Source: Paracoccaceae bacterium
GTDB lineage: Bacteria; Pseudomonadota; Alphaproteobacteria; Rhodobacterales; Rhodobacteraceae
DNA length: 64,000 bases
Assembly (NCBI GenBank): GCA_018222585.1
Contig: JAAFAB010000001.1
Coordinates: 594,198-658,197 of the forward strand
Direction: 5' to 3'
Shown here: in pieces, positions 21,300 through 26,095 of the stretch
Position numbering within the stretch: position 1 is the stretch's first letter
How the letters are laid out: each line of letters opens with the position of its first letter
Program-made: the position numbers and the translations under genes
The notes under the pieces: generated by a model
The model's database searches: none
The model's input: only the letters and a program-made list of their open reading frames with translations
What the model was told of the DNA's origin: nothing

Positions 21300-21941
21300 C
21301 TACCAGCGCAGCAGCTGCCGCCCGGCCAGCGCCCCGAGGCCGGTGGCGATCATGATCCCGGCCGAATACCAGACGGCGTAGAACAGCGGGCTGTCCTCGA
21401 TGCAGAAGGTCGAATAGATCGCCGTCGCCAGCCCGGCCGCGACCAGCCCGGCAAGCGCCCCGCAGCGGGCCGGGCGGACCGGGGCCCCGCGCCGCAGTGC
21501 CACCAGCAGCCCGGCCAGCATGGGCAGGGACAGCAGGGTGATCGCCGGCAGGCAGACCGGAATCGAATGCCCGAGGAAGAGGCGCAGGCGATCGCCGGGA
21601 AGCTCGGTGAGGAAGGCCAGCAGGAACAGGCCCGCCACGGCCAGCGGCACGGCCCAGATCAGCGCCCCCGGCAGGCCGTAGCGCGCGCCCGGACGGGCAT
21701 CACGCAACACCAGCGGCAGGGCCAGCGCGGCCAGCAGCAGCGGCAGCAGGGTCTTGGCCAGCACCACGGGCCGGGCCAGCGCCGCCGCCAGATCGGGCCG
21801 CGGGCCGAGCACCAGCGCGAAGGCCAGCGCCGTCACCAGCACGCCCAGCCCGAGGAACCCCGGCAGCCGGGTCTCGACCCGGGGCGGGCGGGGGGCGGCG
21901 GGATCTGCCGCCAGCGCGGAAATCAGGTCTTCGGTCTTCAT
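21300..21941 (-). CDS. nrsF: NrsF-type (DUF1109) membrane anti-sigma factor
   Basis: 213-residue protein with a short cytoplasmic N-terminus ([16 protein letters not shown]) followed by about six transmembrane helices, the DUF1109/NrsF layout. It should hold the ECF sigma factor encoded just upstream at the membrane until metal stress releases it. Three cysteines are present: Cys130, Cys160 and Cys180. Cys130 and Cys180 correspond closely to the two cysteines I recall as essential for sensing in the Caulobacter SigF partner. The ATG overlaps the sigma gene stop (ATGA), so the two are co-translated. Confidence 0.88.
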   Translation of the reverse strand: MKTEDLISALAADPAAPRPPRVETRLPGFLGLGVLVTALAFALVLGPRPDLAAALARPVVLAKTLLPLLLAALALPLVLRDARPGARYGLPGALIWAVPLAVAGLFLLAFLTELPGDRLRLFLGHSIPVCLPAITLLSLPMLAGLLVALRRGAPVRPARCGALAGLVAAGLATAIYSTFCIEDSPLFYAVWYSAGIMIATGLGALAGRQLLRW

Positions 21942-22630
21942 CGTCGTCGTCCTACTGTCGTTACCGCCTCTTGGTCGTCCCTTTCCTGCCCCGTCGTCTT
22001 GTGTCCCGCCGTCCTGTGTCCCGTCCTGTCCCGCGCCATCGTCGCGTCGGGGGGATCTCCCTCCGCCGCGTGCGCGCCAGCTTCTCCCGCCAGCGCCTTC
22101 AATTGCCGCATGGCGCGGTGATAGGCCACCCGCACCGCGCCCTCGGTCATGCCGTGGCGGGCCCCGACCTCGGCAGCGCTTTCGCCCTCGACCCCGAGGG
22201 CGCGGACGATCTCCGCCGCGCGGGGGTCGAGCCGCTGCAGCAGCCGGGTCAGGTCGCGGGCCGCCGTCACCTCGCCAAGCGCCTCGTCGGGCAGCACCTC
22301 GGCGAGGTCCTCGATGGGCACCTCGGCCCCCGAGCCGCCCCCTCGCGCCCGCCGCCGCCGCGCCGCATCAGCGCATTTGTAGCGCGCGATGGCATAGAGC
22401 CAGGGGGTGACCGGCTCCCCCTCGCGCCAGGTATGGCGCTTGGCATGGATCGCCATCAGCGCCTCCTGCACCACGTCCTCGACCTCTTCGGCGGTGCCGC
22501 CGGCCATCCGGGCCCGCGCGATGTTGCGCAGCACCGGCAGGGTCTCGGTCAGGAAACGCGCATAGGCTGCCCGGTCGCCGGAGTTGCCCCGGCGCAGAAG
22601 ATCCCCCCAGAGCGCGTTACGGTCGTTCAT
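21938..22630 (-). CDS. sigF: ECF sigma factor, SigF-like
   Basis: 230 residues from the ATG at 22630 (ribosome site GGGAGAGGGGA). Sigma region 2 is at about 30-95 ([33 protein letters not shown]) and region 4 at about 130-180 ([32 protein letters not shown]). Paired with an NrsF-like protein and divergent from a DUF2282-DUF692-DUF2063-DoxX operon, it matches the SigF-NrsF systems of alphaproteobacteria that answer copper and other heavy-metal or oxidative stress. Oddly, about 45 residues of low-complexity, polar tail follow region 4, encoded by DNA with short GTCCTGTGTCCCG-like repeats. Its own promoter matches that of the divergent operon, implying autoregulation. Confidence 0.9.
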
Positions 22631-22641
22631 TCCCCTCTCCC

Positions 22642-22668
22642 TTCGCGGGCGGTCTGGCAAACGTTACA
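22642..22668 (-). promoter_or_regulatory. ECF promoter of the sigF-nrsF operon
   Basis: On the minus strand TGTAACG (22662-22668), a 14-base spacer, and CGCGAA (22642-22647) lie 12 bases ahead of the sigF start. The same two elements with the same spacing occur on the other strand in front of the DUF2282 gene, so this is very likely the element read by SigF itself. Confidence 0.75.
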
Positions 22669-22713
22669 GGCAGCGTGCATTTTTCCGCAATCTCTTCACT
22701 CGTTCGTGAGCCC

Positions 22714-22740
22714 TGTAACGGAGCCGCCCGGCGCCGCGAA
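22714..22740 (+). promoter_or_regulatory. ECF promoter of the bufferin-type operon
   Basis: TGTAACG (22714-22720), 14 bases, CGCGAA (22735-22740). It mirrors the promoter of sigF on the other strand and would start a transcript with a leader of about 50 bases before the precursor gene. Confidence 0.78.
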
Positions 22741-22797
22741 TGGCAAGGCACGGACGCCACGACGGCGTACCGATCGGAACATGCAAGGGAGAGACCC

Positions 22798-23112
22798 ATG
22801 TCCACCATCCTCAAGTCCGCCGCCATCGCCGGTGCCTTCGCAACCGCCCTCGCCGCCCATGCCACCACCGCCACCGCGGACGACATGGCCCAGGAGAAGT
22901 GCTTTGGCGTGTCCATGGCCGGCGAGAACGACTGCGCAGCCGGCCCCGGCACCACCTGCGCCGGCACCTCGAAGGTCGATTACCAGGGCAATGCCTGGAC
23001 CCTCGTGGACGCGGGCAAATGCGCCATGATCGAGCTGCCCGCCATGGCCGACGGCACCCCGCGCATGGGATCGCTGGAAGCCCTGGACCGCGATCTGCCG
23101 ATGGAGGGCTGA
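22798..23112 (+). CDS. bufA: Bufferin-type four-cysteine precursor (DUF2282)
   Basis: 104-residue exported precursor. It has an N-terminal Sec signal (about 1-27, [20 protein letters not shown]) and a mature part with four cysteines in the family arrangement: Cys35 (EKCFGV), Cys46 (ENDCAAG), Cys54 ([17 protein letters not shown]) and Cys75 (DAGKCAMI). In characterised members the central cysteines are oxidised by the neighbouring MNIO enzyme to thiooxazole-type heterocycles and the secreted peptide sequesters copper. Here that is inferred from family and neighbours. The ribosome site is AAGGGAGAG. A 30-residue tail after Cys75 has no cysteine. Confidence 0.9.
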
Positions 23113-23124
23113 GGCCCTGCCGGA

Positions 23125-23148
23125 GCGCCCCGGGCCTTCCCGGGGCGC
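23125..23148 (+). promoter_or_regulatory. Intercistronic hairpin between bufA and bufB
   Basis: GCGCCCCGGG (23125-23134) pairs perfectly with CCCGGGGCGC (23139-23148) over a CCTT loop, 12 bases after the bufA stop. No T-run follows, so it is more likely an RNA-stabilising or attenuating element that raises bufA transcript over the enzyme genes than a full terminator. Confidence 0.6.
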
Positions 23149-23216
23149 GCCCCGTCCCGGGAGGTTTCCGCAAACCCCACGCGGTTTTCGCAAGTCCCCC
23201 GAAGCGGAGAGAATTG

Positions 23217-24068
23217 ATGTTCGACCAGAGCCCCTCGCGCCTGCCCGCCCTGCCCGGCGTCGGCTTCAAGGCCCAGCACTACGCTGCAATCCTGCAGGAG
23301 CCCGCCCCCGTCGGCTGGCTGGAAGTCCACGCCGAGAACTACATGGGCGAGGGCGGCCGCCCGATCGCCATGCTGCGCCACCTGGCCGAGCGTTTCCCGG
23401 TCTCGGTCCATGGCGTCGGCCTGTCCATCGGGGGCGAAGGCGCGCTGGACCGCGACCACCTGGCCCGGCTGCGCCACCTCTGCGACTGGCTGGACCCGGC
23501 CAGTTTCTCGGAGCACCTGGCCTGGTCGACCCACGACAGCGCCTATTTCAACGACCTGCTGCCCCTGCCCTATACCGCCGCCACCCTGACGCGGGTCGCC
23601 GATCATGTCGACCAGGTGCAGGAGGCGCTTGGCCGCCCGATGCTGCTGGAAAACCCCTCCTCCTACCTGTCCTTCGACGAGAGCGAGATGGCCGAGACGG
23701 ATTTCCTGCGCGAGGTCGCCCGGCGCACCGGCTGCGGGCTGCTGCTGGATGTGAACAACGTCTTCGTCTCGGCAGTGAACCTCGGTCTGGATCCGCGCGC
23801 CTACGTGCGGGACTTCCCGCTGGCGCAGATCGGAGAGATCCACCTCGGTGGCCATGACGAGGACGAGGATGACGCGGGCCGCCCGCTGCTGATCGACAGC
23901 CATGGCCGCGAAGTCGCAGACCCGGTCTGGGCGCTGCTGGATCACCTGCTGGCGCTCTCCGGGCCGAAGCCGGTGCTGATCGAATGGGACAACGACGTGC
24001 CTGACTGGCCGGTGCTGGCCGCCGAAGCCAGCCGCGCCGAGGCAGCCCTGCAGAGGGCACCGGCATGA
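23217..24068 (+). CDS. bufB: MNIO-family (DUF692) multinuclear iron oxidase
   Basis: 283-residue TIM-barrel-type enzyme that oxidatively modifies cysteines of the precursor peptide using a non-heme iron cluster. The start at 23217 follows AGCGGAGAG. Candidate metal ligands in conserved motifs are His65 (HGVGLSIG), His100 (FSEHLAW), Glu145 (LLENPSSY), Asp178 ([15 protein letters not shown]), His209 and His213 (EIHLGGH), Asp227 and His229 (DSHG), and Glu256 (IEWDND). The length and motifs are normal for the family. It is coupled to the next gene by an ATGA overlap. Confidence 0.93.
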
Positions 24069-24823
24069 GCCCTGTGCTGACCCAGCTCGATTTCCGCGCG
24101 GCCATGCTCCGCCCCGAGGCGCCGGTACCCGAAGGGTTGGGCGATGGCCGGGGCGGCCCTGCCGGGCGGCGCTTTTCGGTCTATCGCAACAATGTCGCCG
24201 TCGGGCTGACCGAGGCCGTGCTGGAGGGTTTCCCGACCCTGCGCGCCCTGCTGGGGGACGAGAACCTGCGCGGAGTCGCGGCGCCCTTCCTGCGGGCGCA
24301 TCCGCCCAGCTCTCCGCTGATGTTCCGCTATGGCGCGGCGCTGCCCGGCTTCCTGAAGGGCTTCGCGCCGTTGGCCCACCTGGGTTACCTGCCCGACGTG
24401 GCGCGGCTGGATCTCTGCCTGCGCGCAAGCTACCACGCCGCCGATGCCACGCCGCTGGACCCGGCGCGGCTGTCGGCGCTGCCGCCCGAGGACCTTGGCC
24501 GTGCCCGCCTGCGGCTGGCGCCGCCGGTGCGGATCCTGCGCTCGGACTGGCCGTTGTGGCAGATCTGGCAACTGGCGCATCACGACGGCCCGCCGCCGCA
24601 GCCGGTGGCGCAGGACATCCTGATCACGCGACCGGGCTACGACCCCCGGCCGTATCTTCTGCCCGCCGGTGGTGCGGGCTTCCTTGAGGCCCTCGGCCAG
24701 GGACAAAGCGCCGAAATGGCGTCGGAGGCCGCCCTCGCGGAGGCCCCCGGCGCAGATCTGGCCGCGATCCTCGGCCTGCTGCTGCAAAGCGGCGCCCTGA
24801 TGTCGCTGGAGATCCCGTCATGA
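24065..24823 (+). CDS. bufC: DUF2063 partner protein of the MNIO enzyme
   Basis: 252 residues. The N-terminal DUF2063 domain is recognised by [37 protein letters not shown] and [20 protein letters not shown]. The C-terminal half is a second small domain. In characterised clusters the DUF2063 protein delivers or binds the precursor for the DUF692 enzyme and is needed for modification. It overlaps both neighbours by 4 bases (ATGA at each junction), which implies fixed stoichiometry with BufB. Confidence 0.9.
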
Positions 24824-25413
24824 CCGATCCGACCGCCCCGCTGGCCCGTGTTCTGGACCACCTGGCCCCGCTGCTGCCCCTGCTGGCCCGCTTCACCTTC
24901 GCCGCCGTGCTGCTGCCCTACTTCTGGGCCTCGGCGATGACCAAGCTTGGCGATGGCGTGGCGGGGCTCTTCCACCCCTCGGTCGGCGCCTATGCGCAGA
25001 TCTTCCCGAGGGTCTTCGAGGCGGCGGGCTACGACACGTCGAAACTGGGTGTCTTCCACTGGGCCGTGGTCACCGCCGGCACCTGGGCCGAGTTCGCCCT
25101 GCCCGCGCTGATCGTGCTGGGCCTGCTGACCCGGCTGGCGGCGCTTGGCATGGTGGGCTTCATCGCGGTGCAGAGCCTGACCGACCTCTATGGTCACGGC
25201 GGACTCGAGCACGCCGCCACCCTCGGCGCCTGGTTCGACCGGATGCCGGACGGGGTAATCCTGGATCAGCGCGCCTTCTGGGTCTTCACGCTGCTGGTTC
25301 TCGCGGTTCAGGGCGCGGGCGCCCTGTCGCTGGACCGGCTGGTGTTCAGAAGTGGCGCACCGGCTCGTCCGGGCGGCCTGCGGCAAGCGCCAGAAGGCCA
25401 GCAATCGCGATGA
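24820..25413 (+). CDS. DoxX-family membrane protein
   Basis: 197 residues with about four transmembrane helices. Family-like segments are FTFAAVLLPYFWASAMTKL, AEFALPALIVLGLLTRLAAL and the terminal helix around FTLLVLAVQGAGALSLDRL. DoxX proteins commonly close DUF2282-DUF692-DUF2063 operons, possibly as a redox component that works with the quinone pool. The job is not established. The last 22 residues after the final helix look unstructured, and the 3' end overlaps the gene on the other strand by 68 bases. Confidence 0.88.
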   Translation: MTDPTAPLARVLDHLAPLLPLLARFTFAAVLLPYFWASAMTKLGDGVAGLFHPSVGAYAQIFPRVFEAAGYDTSKLGVFHWAVVTAGTWAEFALPALIVLGLLTRLAALGMVGFIAVQSLTDLYGHGGLEHAATLGAWFDRMPDGVILDQRAFWVFTLLVLAVQGAGALSLDRLVFRSGAPARPGGLRQAPEGQQSR

Positions 25414-25714
25414 AGGCCATGGGGAAGAGGGTGAAGACCGTGACCCCGAAGCCCATGTAGAAGACACCGGCCGAGCCCAGCATCAGCGCCCCGCCCCAAA
25501 GCGCCCGGGCCCGCGCCATGCCGGCCCCGGCAATGGCCAGAATGGGCGAGAGCAGCGCCGCCGTGCGCAGCGCCTCGACATTGGCGACCTGGCGGAACAG
25601 GCCGTCGACCTCGCCATAGGCGCGGATCGCCTCGGTATAGCCATAGCCCGCGAAACCCACGACCAGGGCCATCAGGCCACCGATCAACCCCAGGATCAAT
25701 GCCGCGTTGCGCAA
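25346..25714 (-). CDS. Small membrane protein, hypothetical
   Basis: 122 residues with four predicted transmembrane helices (starts MRNAALILGLIGGLMALVVG, then segments near residues 50-68, 72-88 and 93-112). The ribosome site on the minus strand is GGAAAGGAAGG, just before the ATG. It converges on and overlaps the DoxX gene by 68 bases, the overlap covering its own last 22 codons. I do not recognise a specific family with certainty. Similar four-helix proteins are widespread in alphaproteobacteria. Confidence 0.72.
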   Translation of the reverse strand: MRNAALILGLIGGLMALVVGFAGYGYTEAIRAYGEVDGLFRQVANVEALRTAALLSPILAIAGAGMARARALWGGALMLGSAGVFYMGFGVTVFTLFPMAFIAIAGLLALAAGRPDEPVRHF

Positions 25715-25780: not shown

Positions 25781-26095
25781 TCATGCCCCGAGCGCCTGCT
25801 GAACGTCCTTCGTCCACCCTAGATAGAGATCCTCGCCCGCCACGATAAGAGGGCGCTTCATCAGGGCGGGGTGATCGCGCAACAGATCGCGCGCCGGGCG
25901 GGCGCGCTCGGCCTCGTCCAGGCTCCGCCAGGTGGTCGACCGGTTGTTCACCAGCGCCGGCCCGAAAGCCGCCAGCGCCTTGTCCAGAAGGGCATCGGAG
26001 AGCGGTTCGGCGCGGATATCCACCAGCTCGGCCCCCGGCAGCGCCTTCGCCGCCTTGCGGCAGGTATCGCAGGTCTTCAGTCCGTAAAGCTTCAT
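25781..26095 (-). CDS. Spx/ArsC-family (YffB-like) thioredoxin-fold protein
   Basis: 104 residues beginning MKLYGLKTCDTCRKAAKAL with a CxxC motif (Cys9, Cys12). The C-terminal motif is LRDHPALMKRPLIV followed by DLYLGWTKD, typical of the ArsC/Spx superfamily's YffB branch. True arsenate reductase activity is doubtful for this branch. A glutathione-dependent reductase role is often assumed. It stands alone and is divergent from the cold-shock gene. Confidence 0.88.
   Translation of the reverse strand: MKLYGLKTCDTCRKAAKALPGAELVDIRAEPLSDALLDKALAAFGPALVNNRSTTWRSLDEAERARPARDLLRDHPALMKRPLIVAGEDLYLGWTKDVQQALGA

Follow-up and report, generated by a model that had tools for sequence, protein, structure and literature searches.

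How a bufferin operon is switched on is the question raised by a locus in a 64,000-nt stretch of DNA from a Paracoccaceae bacterium (GCA_018222585.1, contig JAAFAB010000001.1; the whole stretch is called the window here). In this locus, sigF and nrsF, which encode an extracytoplasmic function (ECF) sigma factor and a putative membrane anti-sigma factor, are divergent from bufA-bufB-bufC-doxX across a 167-bp gap. The initial annotation described the locus as a self-contained metal module. It does carry its own sigma/anti-sigma pair, but this description is incomplete, as bufA has, besides its SigF promoter, another conserved operator 5 bp 5' of the -35. We lean slightly towards an operon that would answer to two inputs, SigF/NrsF locally and a CenR-type response regulator acting at this palindrome. 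The three elements in the gap are:

22642..22668, minus strand: SigF-type promoter of sigF-nrsF, TGTAAC-N17-CGAA
22714..22740, plus strand: SigF-type promoter of bufA, TGTAAC-N17-CGAA
22696..22709, no strand assigned: palindrome TCAC-N6-GTGA (TCACTCGTTCGTGA), candidate CenR-like operator, 5 bp 5' of the bufA -35 GTAAC

The exact motif GTAAC-N17-CGAA was found twice in the 5.15-Mb genome, both times in the sigF/bufA gap, and its spacing is identical to that of the reported Caulobacter SigF consensus, GTAACC-N16-CGAA (PMC3511200). Word counts in the window predicted about 5 occurrences genome-wide, and a reversed control pattern gave 19. Stray SigF promoters may have been selected against in this genome (G000; 0 elsewhere vs about 5 expected), these numbers being small. 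A wider SigF regulon was considered and rejected, as 67 further sites with one mismatch showed no excess over the 74 obtained with the reversed pattern.

The comparison covered 198 genomes of the host's family, from which 139 other loci were fetched, giving 140 with the window. The gene nrsF stood beside the buf genes in 18 of these loci (hereafter SigF-type) and was absent there in 122. Upstream of bufA, GTAAC-N17-CGAA was present in 11 of the 18 loci with adjacent nrsF vs 1 of the 122 without; with a spacer of 16 or 17, the first count rose to 13 of 18. The sole motif-bearing locus without adjacent nrsF (L149) belongs to a genome with nrsF elsewhere. In L149 and L207 (genome G175), bufA lies beside thrS with a SigF-type promoter and sigF-nrsF is far off, a trans arrangement.

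We then assessed the palindrome in 26 SigF-type loci, comprising the 18 of the family (window included) and 8 named relatives. In 22 of the 26, a palindrome matching in at least 7 of its 8 arm bases stood 5 or 6 bp away from the -35, and 13 had perfect arms. At shifted gap bands, the palindrome was found in 0, 0, 0 and 4 of the 26 loci. The 22 box-bearing loci are not fully independent, because the window, L050 and L217 have identical 14 bases. With 0.57 expected in the window, a lone TCAC-N6-GTGA 14-mer is no rarity; the evidence for the palindrome is its fixed place and its conservation.

These counts bear on a simpler explanation, that of a plain Caulobacter-type module in which SigF and NrsF alone would control bufA and the palindrome would be an inert ancestral remnant. 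The promoter of the Caulobacter bufA gene, CC3254, depended on sigF alone in the reported reporter tests (PMC3511200), and a remnant is possible since the window sits in the BufB-BufC (BufBC) tree among loci lying beside thrS, most of which have double-palindrome promoters. A remnant should have drifted, however, whereas the distance to the -35 is fixed at 5-6 bp in the 22 loci while the inner bases of the palindrome differ in most SigF-type loci. We therefore regard the plain module as unlikely.

The double palindrome came from a de novo motif search of the 122 loci without adjacent nrsF, which returned the double box TSAC-N6-GTGA-NN-CAC-N6-GTGA-NT. A matrix trained on these same 122 loci scored above 10 in 95 of them, with shuffles reaching at most 9.3 and none of the 18 SigF-type loci scoring above 10; L122, one of the 122, lacked upstream sequence and was not scorable. 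Among the 80 named loci, 11 were identical to a training locus in the middle 200 bases and were excluded from a second count, in which the double box was present in 49 of 55 non-SigF relatives and in 0 of 8 SigF-type relatives. A strict double-box pattern matched 31 of 199 genomes, once each, and control patterns matched none; a known bufA follows 30 of the 31 matches, and the remaining one (G211) adjoins bufABC. SigF-type loci carry one half of the double box, the single TCAC-N6-GTGA. For most of the family, the best reading is that the box would act without an adjacent SigF. Clustering of neighbouring genes yielded no candidate gene for a regulator of the double box.

Published CenR sites of two species have this form. 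Sinorhizobium meliloti CenR recognizes an inverted repeat, AGTCAC-N6-GTGACT, adjoining the -35, as reported from mutants and gel shift (PMC9561847), and chromatin immunoprecipitation sequencing of Rhodobacter sphaeroides CenR gave the motif TGA-N8-TGA, with 28 of 31 sites directly 5' of the -35 (PMC9275681). TGAC-N6-GTGA is an instance of the latter motif. We built a CenR matrix from the 31 published R. sphaeroides sites, set its threshold at the 95% point of shuffles and applied it to the bufA upstream regions. Matches were found in 76 of 95 double-box loci, 15 of 18 SigF-type loci and 14 of 26 others, a total of 105 of 139 with about 7 expected, compared with 1 of 139 control pieces from inside bufB. 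Named relatives matched in 60 of 73; 7 of the 80 named loci lacked enough upstream sequence, and the 11 identical ones were kept in this count. The window palindrome scored 12.46, a value equalled by the best site in only 0.3% of shuffled upstream regions.

Instead of CenR, the owner of the palindrome could be a different member of the OmpR family or a regulator from outside it, for instance a copper two-component system or ChvI. The E. coli CusR site TGACAAnnTTGTCA is of related shape (PMC11195947), and the genome has 15 Trans_reg_C matches, 14 of them above the cut-off. Against this stand the arms and the N6 spacing, which fit the CenR sites of both R. sphaeroides and S. meliloti, and the matrix from published sites, which finds the box. 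Ownership by such another regulator thus appears doubtful, and the best reading is that the palindrome would fit CenR or a close OmpR-type regulator. The likeliest CenR candidate in the genome, L334, carries Asp residues at 51 and 56, hand-counted from a script-chosen start.

A broader proposal, held tentatively and at somewhat less than even confidence, is that bufferin promoters of the family are targets of CenR, an essential two-component regulator of the envelope. Most sampled genomes would use the double box without an adjacent SigF; the window lineage, with sigF-nrsF between thrS and bufA and an ECF promoter 5 bp below a single CenR box, would take both inputs.

Another conserved element lies on the other side of bufA:

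23125..23148, plus strand: intercistronic hairpin with a 10-bp perfect stem and a loop of 4 bases, located 12 nt past the bufA stop (z -2.5)

A perfect stem of at least 8 bp was found 3' of bufA in 80 of 138 family loci, where dinucleotide shuffles predicted about 3, and the hairpin started at a median of 12.5 nt past the stop. Two of the 140 loci were left out: L054, where bufA is not followed by bufB and the four-Cys pattern is missing, and L076, with a 464-nt gap. Among the named loci, 48 of 79 had the hairpin with about 1 expected; this set overlaps the family set in the 11 identical loci, which were kept. The hairpin probably allows BufA to be produced at higher levels than its enzymes.

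Several observations weigh against two inputs with CenR as the second. Four of the 26 SigF-type loci have no box, and outside the family it occupied the same place in only 1 of 9 loci with a SigF motif. In a class-wide search, represented by the 30 best-scoring loci from the 47 genomes with a match (29 of these loci outside the family), 10 of 30 bufA upstream regions reached the CenR-matrix threshold. The matrix is degenerate, and three other window positions outscore the palindrome, which ranks fourth. R. sphaeroides cenR has a CenR site upstream; no strong CenR-like site was present within 250 bp 5' of L334 (best 5.3). The published R. sphaeroides CenR regulon table contains no bufferin gene, the presence of such a gene in that strain not having been tested for, and the main text of PMC9275681 mentions neither DUF2282, DUF692, DoxX nor copper. 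Another OmpR-type regulator could own the box, and the window hairpin has no T run.

The genes themselves are as follows:

21300..21941, minus strand: nrsF, putative membrane anti-sigma factor, 213 aa; Pfam NrsF 181.5 bits vs a cut-off of 26.8
21938..22630, minus strand: sigF, ECF sigma factor, 230 aa; Sigma70_r2 and r4_2 matches
22798..23112, plus strand: bufA, Buf1 bufferin precursor, 104 aa; Pfam DUF2282 81.1 bits vs 22.4
23217..24068, plus strand: bufB, MNIO enzyme, 283 aa; Pfam MbnB_TglH_ChrH 352.4 bits
24065..24823, plus strand: bufC, DUF2063 partner protein, 252 aa; Pfam DUF2063 74.8 bits vs 27.2
24820..25413, plus strand: doxX, DoxX-like membrane protein, 197 aa; Pfam DoxX 23.4 bits, slightly below the cut-off of 23.6

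All six genes named in the initial annotation were thus recovered in place, every one above its Pfam cut-off except DoxX, and the proposed search of the precursor against DUF2282 gave a match. The ATGA overlaps it had noted among the last three genes are two, bufB/bufC (24065-24068) and bufC/doxX (24820-24823); a third joins sigF and nrsF (21938-21941). BufB passed the NCBIfam equivalog NF050167 (MNIO_BufB, 'MNIO family bufferin maturase') with 381.6 vs a cut-off of 310, and has solved relatives from the MNIO family including MbnB (3bww, 8hci, 7dz9), while BufC had no sequence match in the PDB at E 0.01. NrsF fell below the NCBIfam equivalog NF042994 (107 vs 300), though well above its Pfam cut-off. 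The genome contains a single DUF2282, a single MNIO and a single NrsF match, each at this locus. Families, gene order and the paired SigF promoters support a Buf1 (DUF2282) bufferin cluster with SigF/NrsF.

NrsF has cysteines at 130, 160 and 180. Across 28 aligned proteins, Cys130 was kept in 27 of 27 with a residue there and Cys180 in 23 of 26, while Cys160 was kept in 5 of 27. Cys130 and Cys180 correspond to C131 and C181 of Caulobacter NrsF; the pair singled out by the initial annotation is the conserved one. In Caulobacter, metal is reported to release SigF from NrsF, and Cys-to-Ser changes in NrsF raise SigF-dependent expression and release SigF (PMC3511200). A crude hydropathy scan separated five hydrophobic stretches in NrsF vs the six helices claimed, and the full Pfam NrsF profile still matches. 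Region 4 of SigF is followed by some 45-50 hydrophilic residues (21941-22090), more than in most relatives compared, and the DNA there appears repetitive by eye.

BufA contains the expected four cysteines, at residues 35, 46, 54 and 75, all in invariant columns of 14 aligned sequences. Residues 1-27 resemble a Sec signal, with Lys6, a hydrophobic stretch and ATA-DD (judged by eye). The predicted structure (mean predicted local distance difference test score 60.9) was not used. The Cys-free tail, put at 30 residues and thought worth comparing, is one residue shorter:

23023..23109, plus strand: Cys-free BufA tail, 29 residues

Comparison revealed a tail of the family type, with RD[LIM] within the last 12 residues in 120 of 140 family BufA proteins. 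An unusual tail was also rejected by a looser rule, which found an RD-like tail in 132 of 140, making it a family trait. Among the 29 class loci outside the family, RD[LIVM] occurred in 2 and tails had at most 23 residues in 27; tails of family BufA proteins are longer than most sampled outside it. The genomes of L076 and L141 each contain two DUF2282 matches close together, and some members may make two precursors.

Under the favoured two-input control, the operon would work as follows, with sensing, SigF dependence, modification, export and copper binding drawn from relatives, and with the CenR step, its activating sense and the role of the hairpin read from sequence only. NrsF would keep SigF at the membrane until a thiol-reactive metal at Cys130 and Cys180 set it free, and free SigF would then act on both facing promoters, those of sigF-nrsF and bufABC-doxX. 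A CenR-type response regulator bound at TCAC-N6-GTGA just 5' of the bufA -35 would aid RNA polymerase, acting as an activator and not as a repressor. The hairpin may keep the bufA message above the bufBC message. BufB and BufC would convert the central BufA cysteines 46 and 54 to thiooxazoles, and the peptide, exported by Sec, would buffer copper in the periplasm. Studied bufferins are reported to have thiooxazoles on the central cysteines, a disulphide between the outer two, Sec export and copper buffering (PMC12452194).

The initial annotation had inferred a copper-buffering peptide under a dedicated sigma factor. The bufferin cluster and its SigF/NrsF pair are supported, while for the copper role the evidence is the analogy with Caulobacter, where the SigF regulon is copper-inducible and cells with sigF::Tn5 are sensitive to the metal (PMC8224329). 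The operon might instead handle another metal or stress, such as gold, silver, cadmium, chromate or thiol stress, which would be compatible with both accounts of how it is controlled. Chromate and cadmium likewise induce the SigF genes of Caulobacter (PMC3511200), and the related gig operons were named after gold induction (PMC12452194). The Caulobacter sigF mutant, however, grew much more poorly with copper but matched the wild type when given chromate or cadmium (PMC8224329), and we judge a different metal or stress quite improbable.

DUF2282 was detected in 140 of the 198 sampled genomes and NrsF in 30. The bufferin module is therefore ordinary in the family, and 116 of the 140 DUF2282 genomes have no NrsF match at all. 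The nearest named relative, Pseudooceanicola antarcticus, has a BufA 89% identical to that of the window and is SigF-type. In two of the 18 SigF-type loci (L048, L077), the sigF-nrsF pair lies downstream and is not divergent. thrS was present in the fetched stretch of 103 of the 140 loci, window included, and in only 3 of the 18 SigF-type loci: the window, L050 (same genus as the window) and L166. In the BufBC tree, the window and L050 lie among thrS-side loci, most of which have no nrsF, and away from the 15 SigF-type loci that lack thrS. Common descent of all SigF-type loci was rejected, a single clade of 18 on BufBC giving an approximately unbiased test value (p-AU) of 1.4e-6 against an imperfect tree from a quick, shallow search. 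When the window, L050 and L166 were kept together, the resulting tree beat that of the free search by 199 log units, and fine BufBC branching is therefore unsafe. The SigF-NrsF proteins of these three loci group together (97/91). The three may form one clade on BufBC, with a single origin of the cassette, which could have been either gained in or kept by this group.

Downstream of doxX, the window encodes an ArsC/Spx-like protein and an unnamed membrane protein (25784-26095 and 25349-25714). Relatives of the two recur in 93 and 57 of the 140 loci, and the thrS-buf-arsC order therefore looks old in the family. Among the 134 loci in which doxX was matched, DoxX is of two unlike types: 120 have a long one (that of the window) and 14 a short one, 12 of these 14 being SigF-type (loci L036-L174). 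In L163, bufB is split into two pieces that overlap and are read in different frames, owing either to a frameshift or to faulty assembly.

The novelty lies not in the module, which is known, but in its regulatory part, the conserved second operator and the hairpin. The Caulobacter vibrioides sigF-nrsF/CC3254-3257 (Buf1) locus has the same six genes by domain, a SigF promoter of the same spacing before both units and two conserved NrsF cysteines. In Caulobacter, the targets of SigF further include a second DUF2282-DUF692 cluster as well as a YedY/Msr gene, whereas no further exact SigF site exists in the present genome, and the window bufA, unlike its Caulobacter counterpart, carries a CenR-like box 5 bp 5' of the -35. 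The Buf1 clusters surveyed in PMC12452194 share the bufABC-doxX order, with sigma factor and NrsF genes reported. The main text of that survey does not contain 'promoter', 'operator', 'palindrom' or 'hairpin', so that operator and hairpin are undescribed there; nor does it contain 'C-terminal extension', and we saw no account of the BufA tail there. In open-access literature, we found no account of how bufferin operons without NrsF are switched on and no paper that joins CenR and bufferins, and for the 122 of 140 family bufA loci without adjacent nrsF the shared box offers a named candidate switch. As in the R. sphaeroides and S. meliloti CenR regulons, a palindrome of the TSAC-N6-GTGA kind lies directly 5' of the -35. 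The listed targets of these regulons are mostly envelope and stress genes, none being a bufferin in R. sphaeroides. If the proposal is true, copper buffering would be tied to envelope homeostasis, with metal sensing and envelope stress meeting on one peptide promoter. The window bufA box differs from the published CenR regulons in that its -35 is of the ECF type; were the proposal right, an ECF promoter carrying a response-regulator site on its upstream side would become accessible to study.

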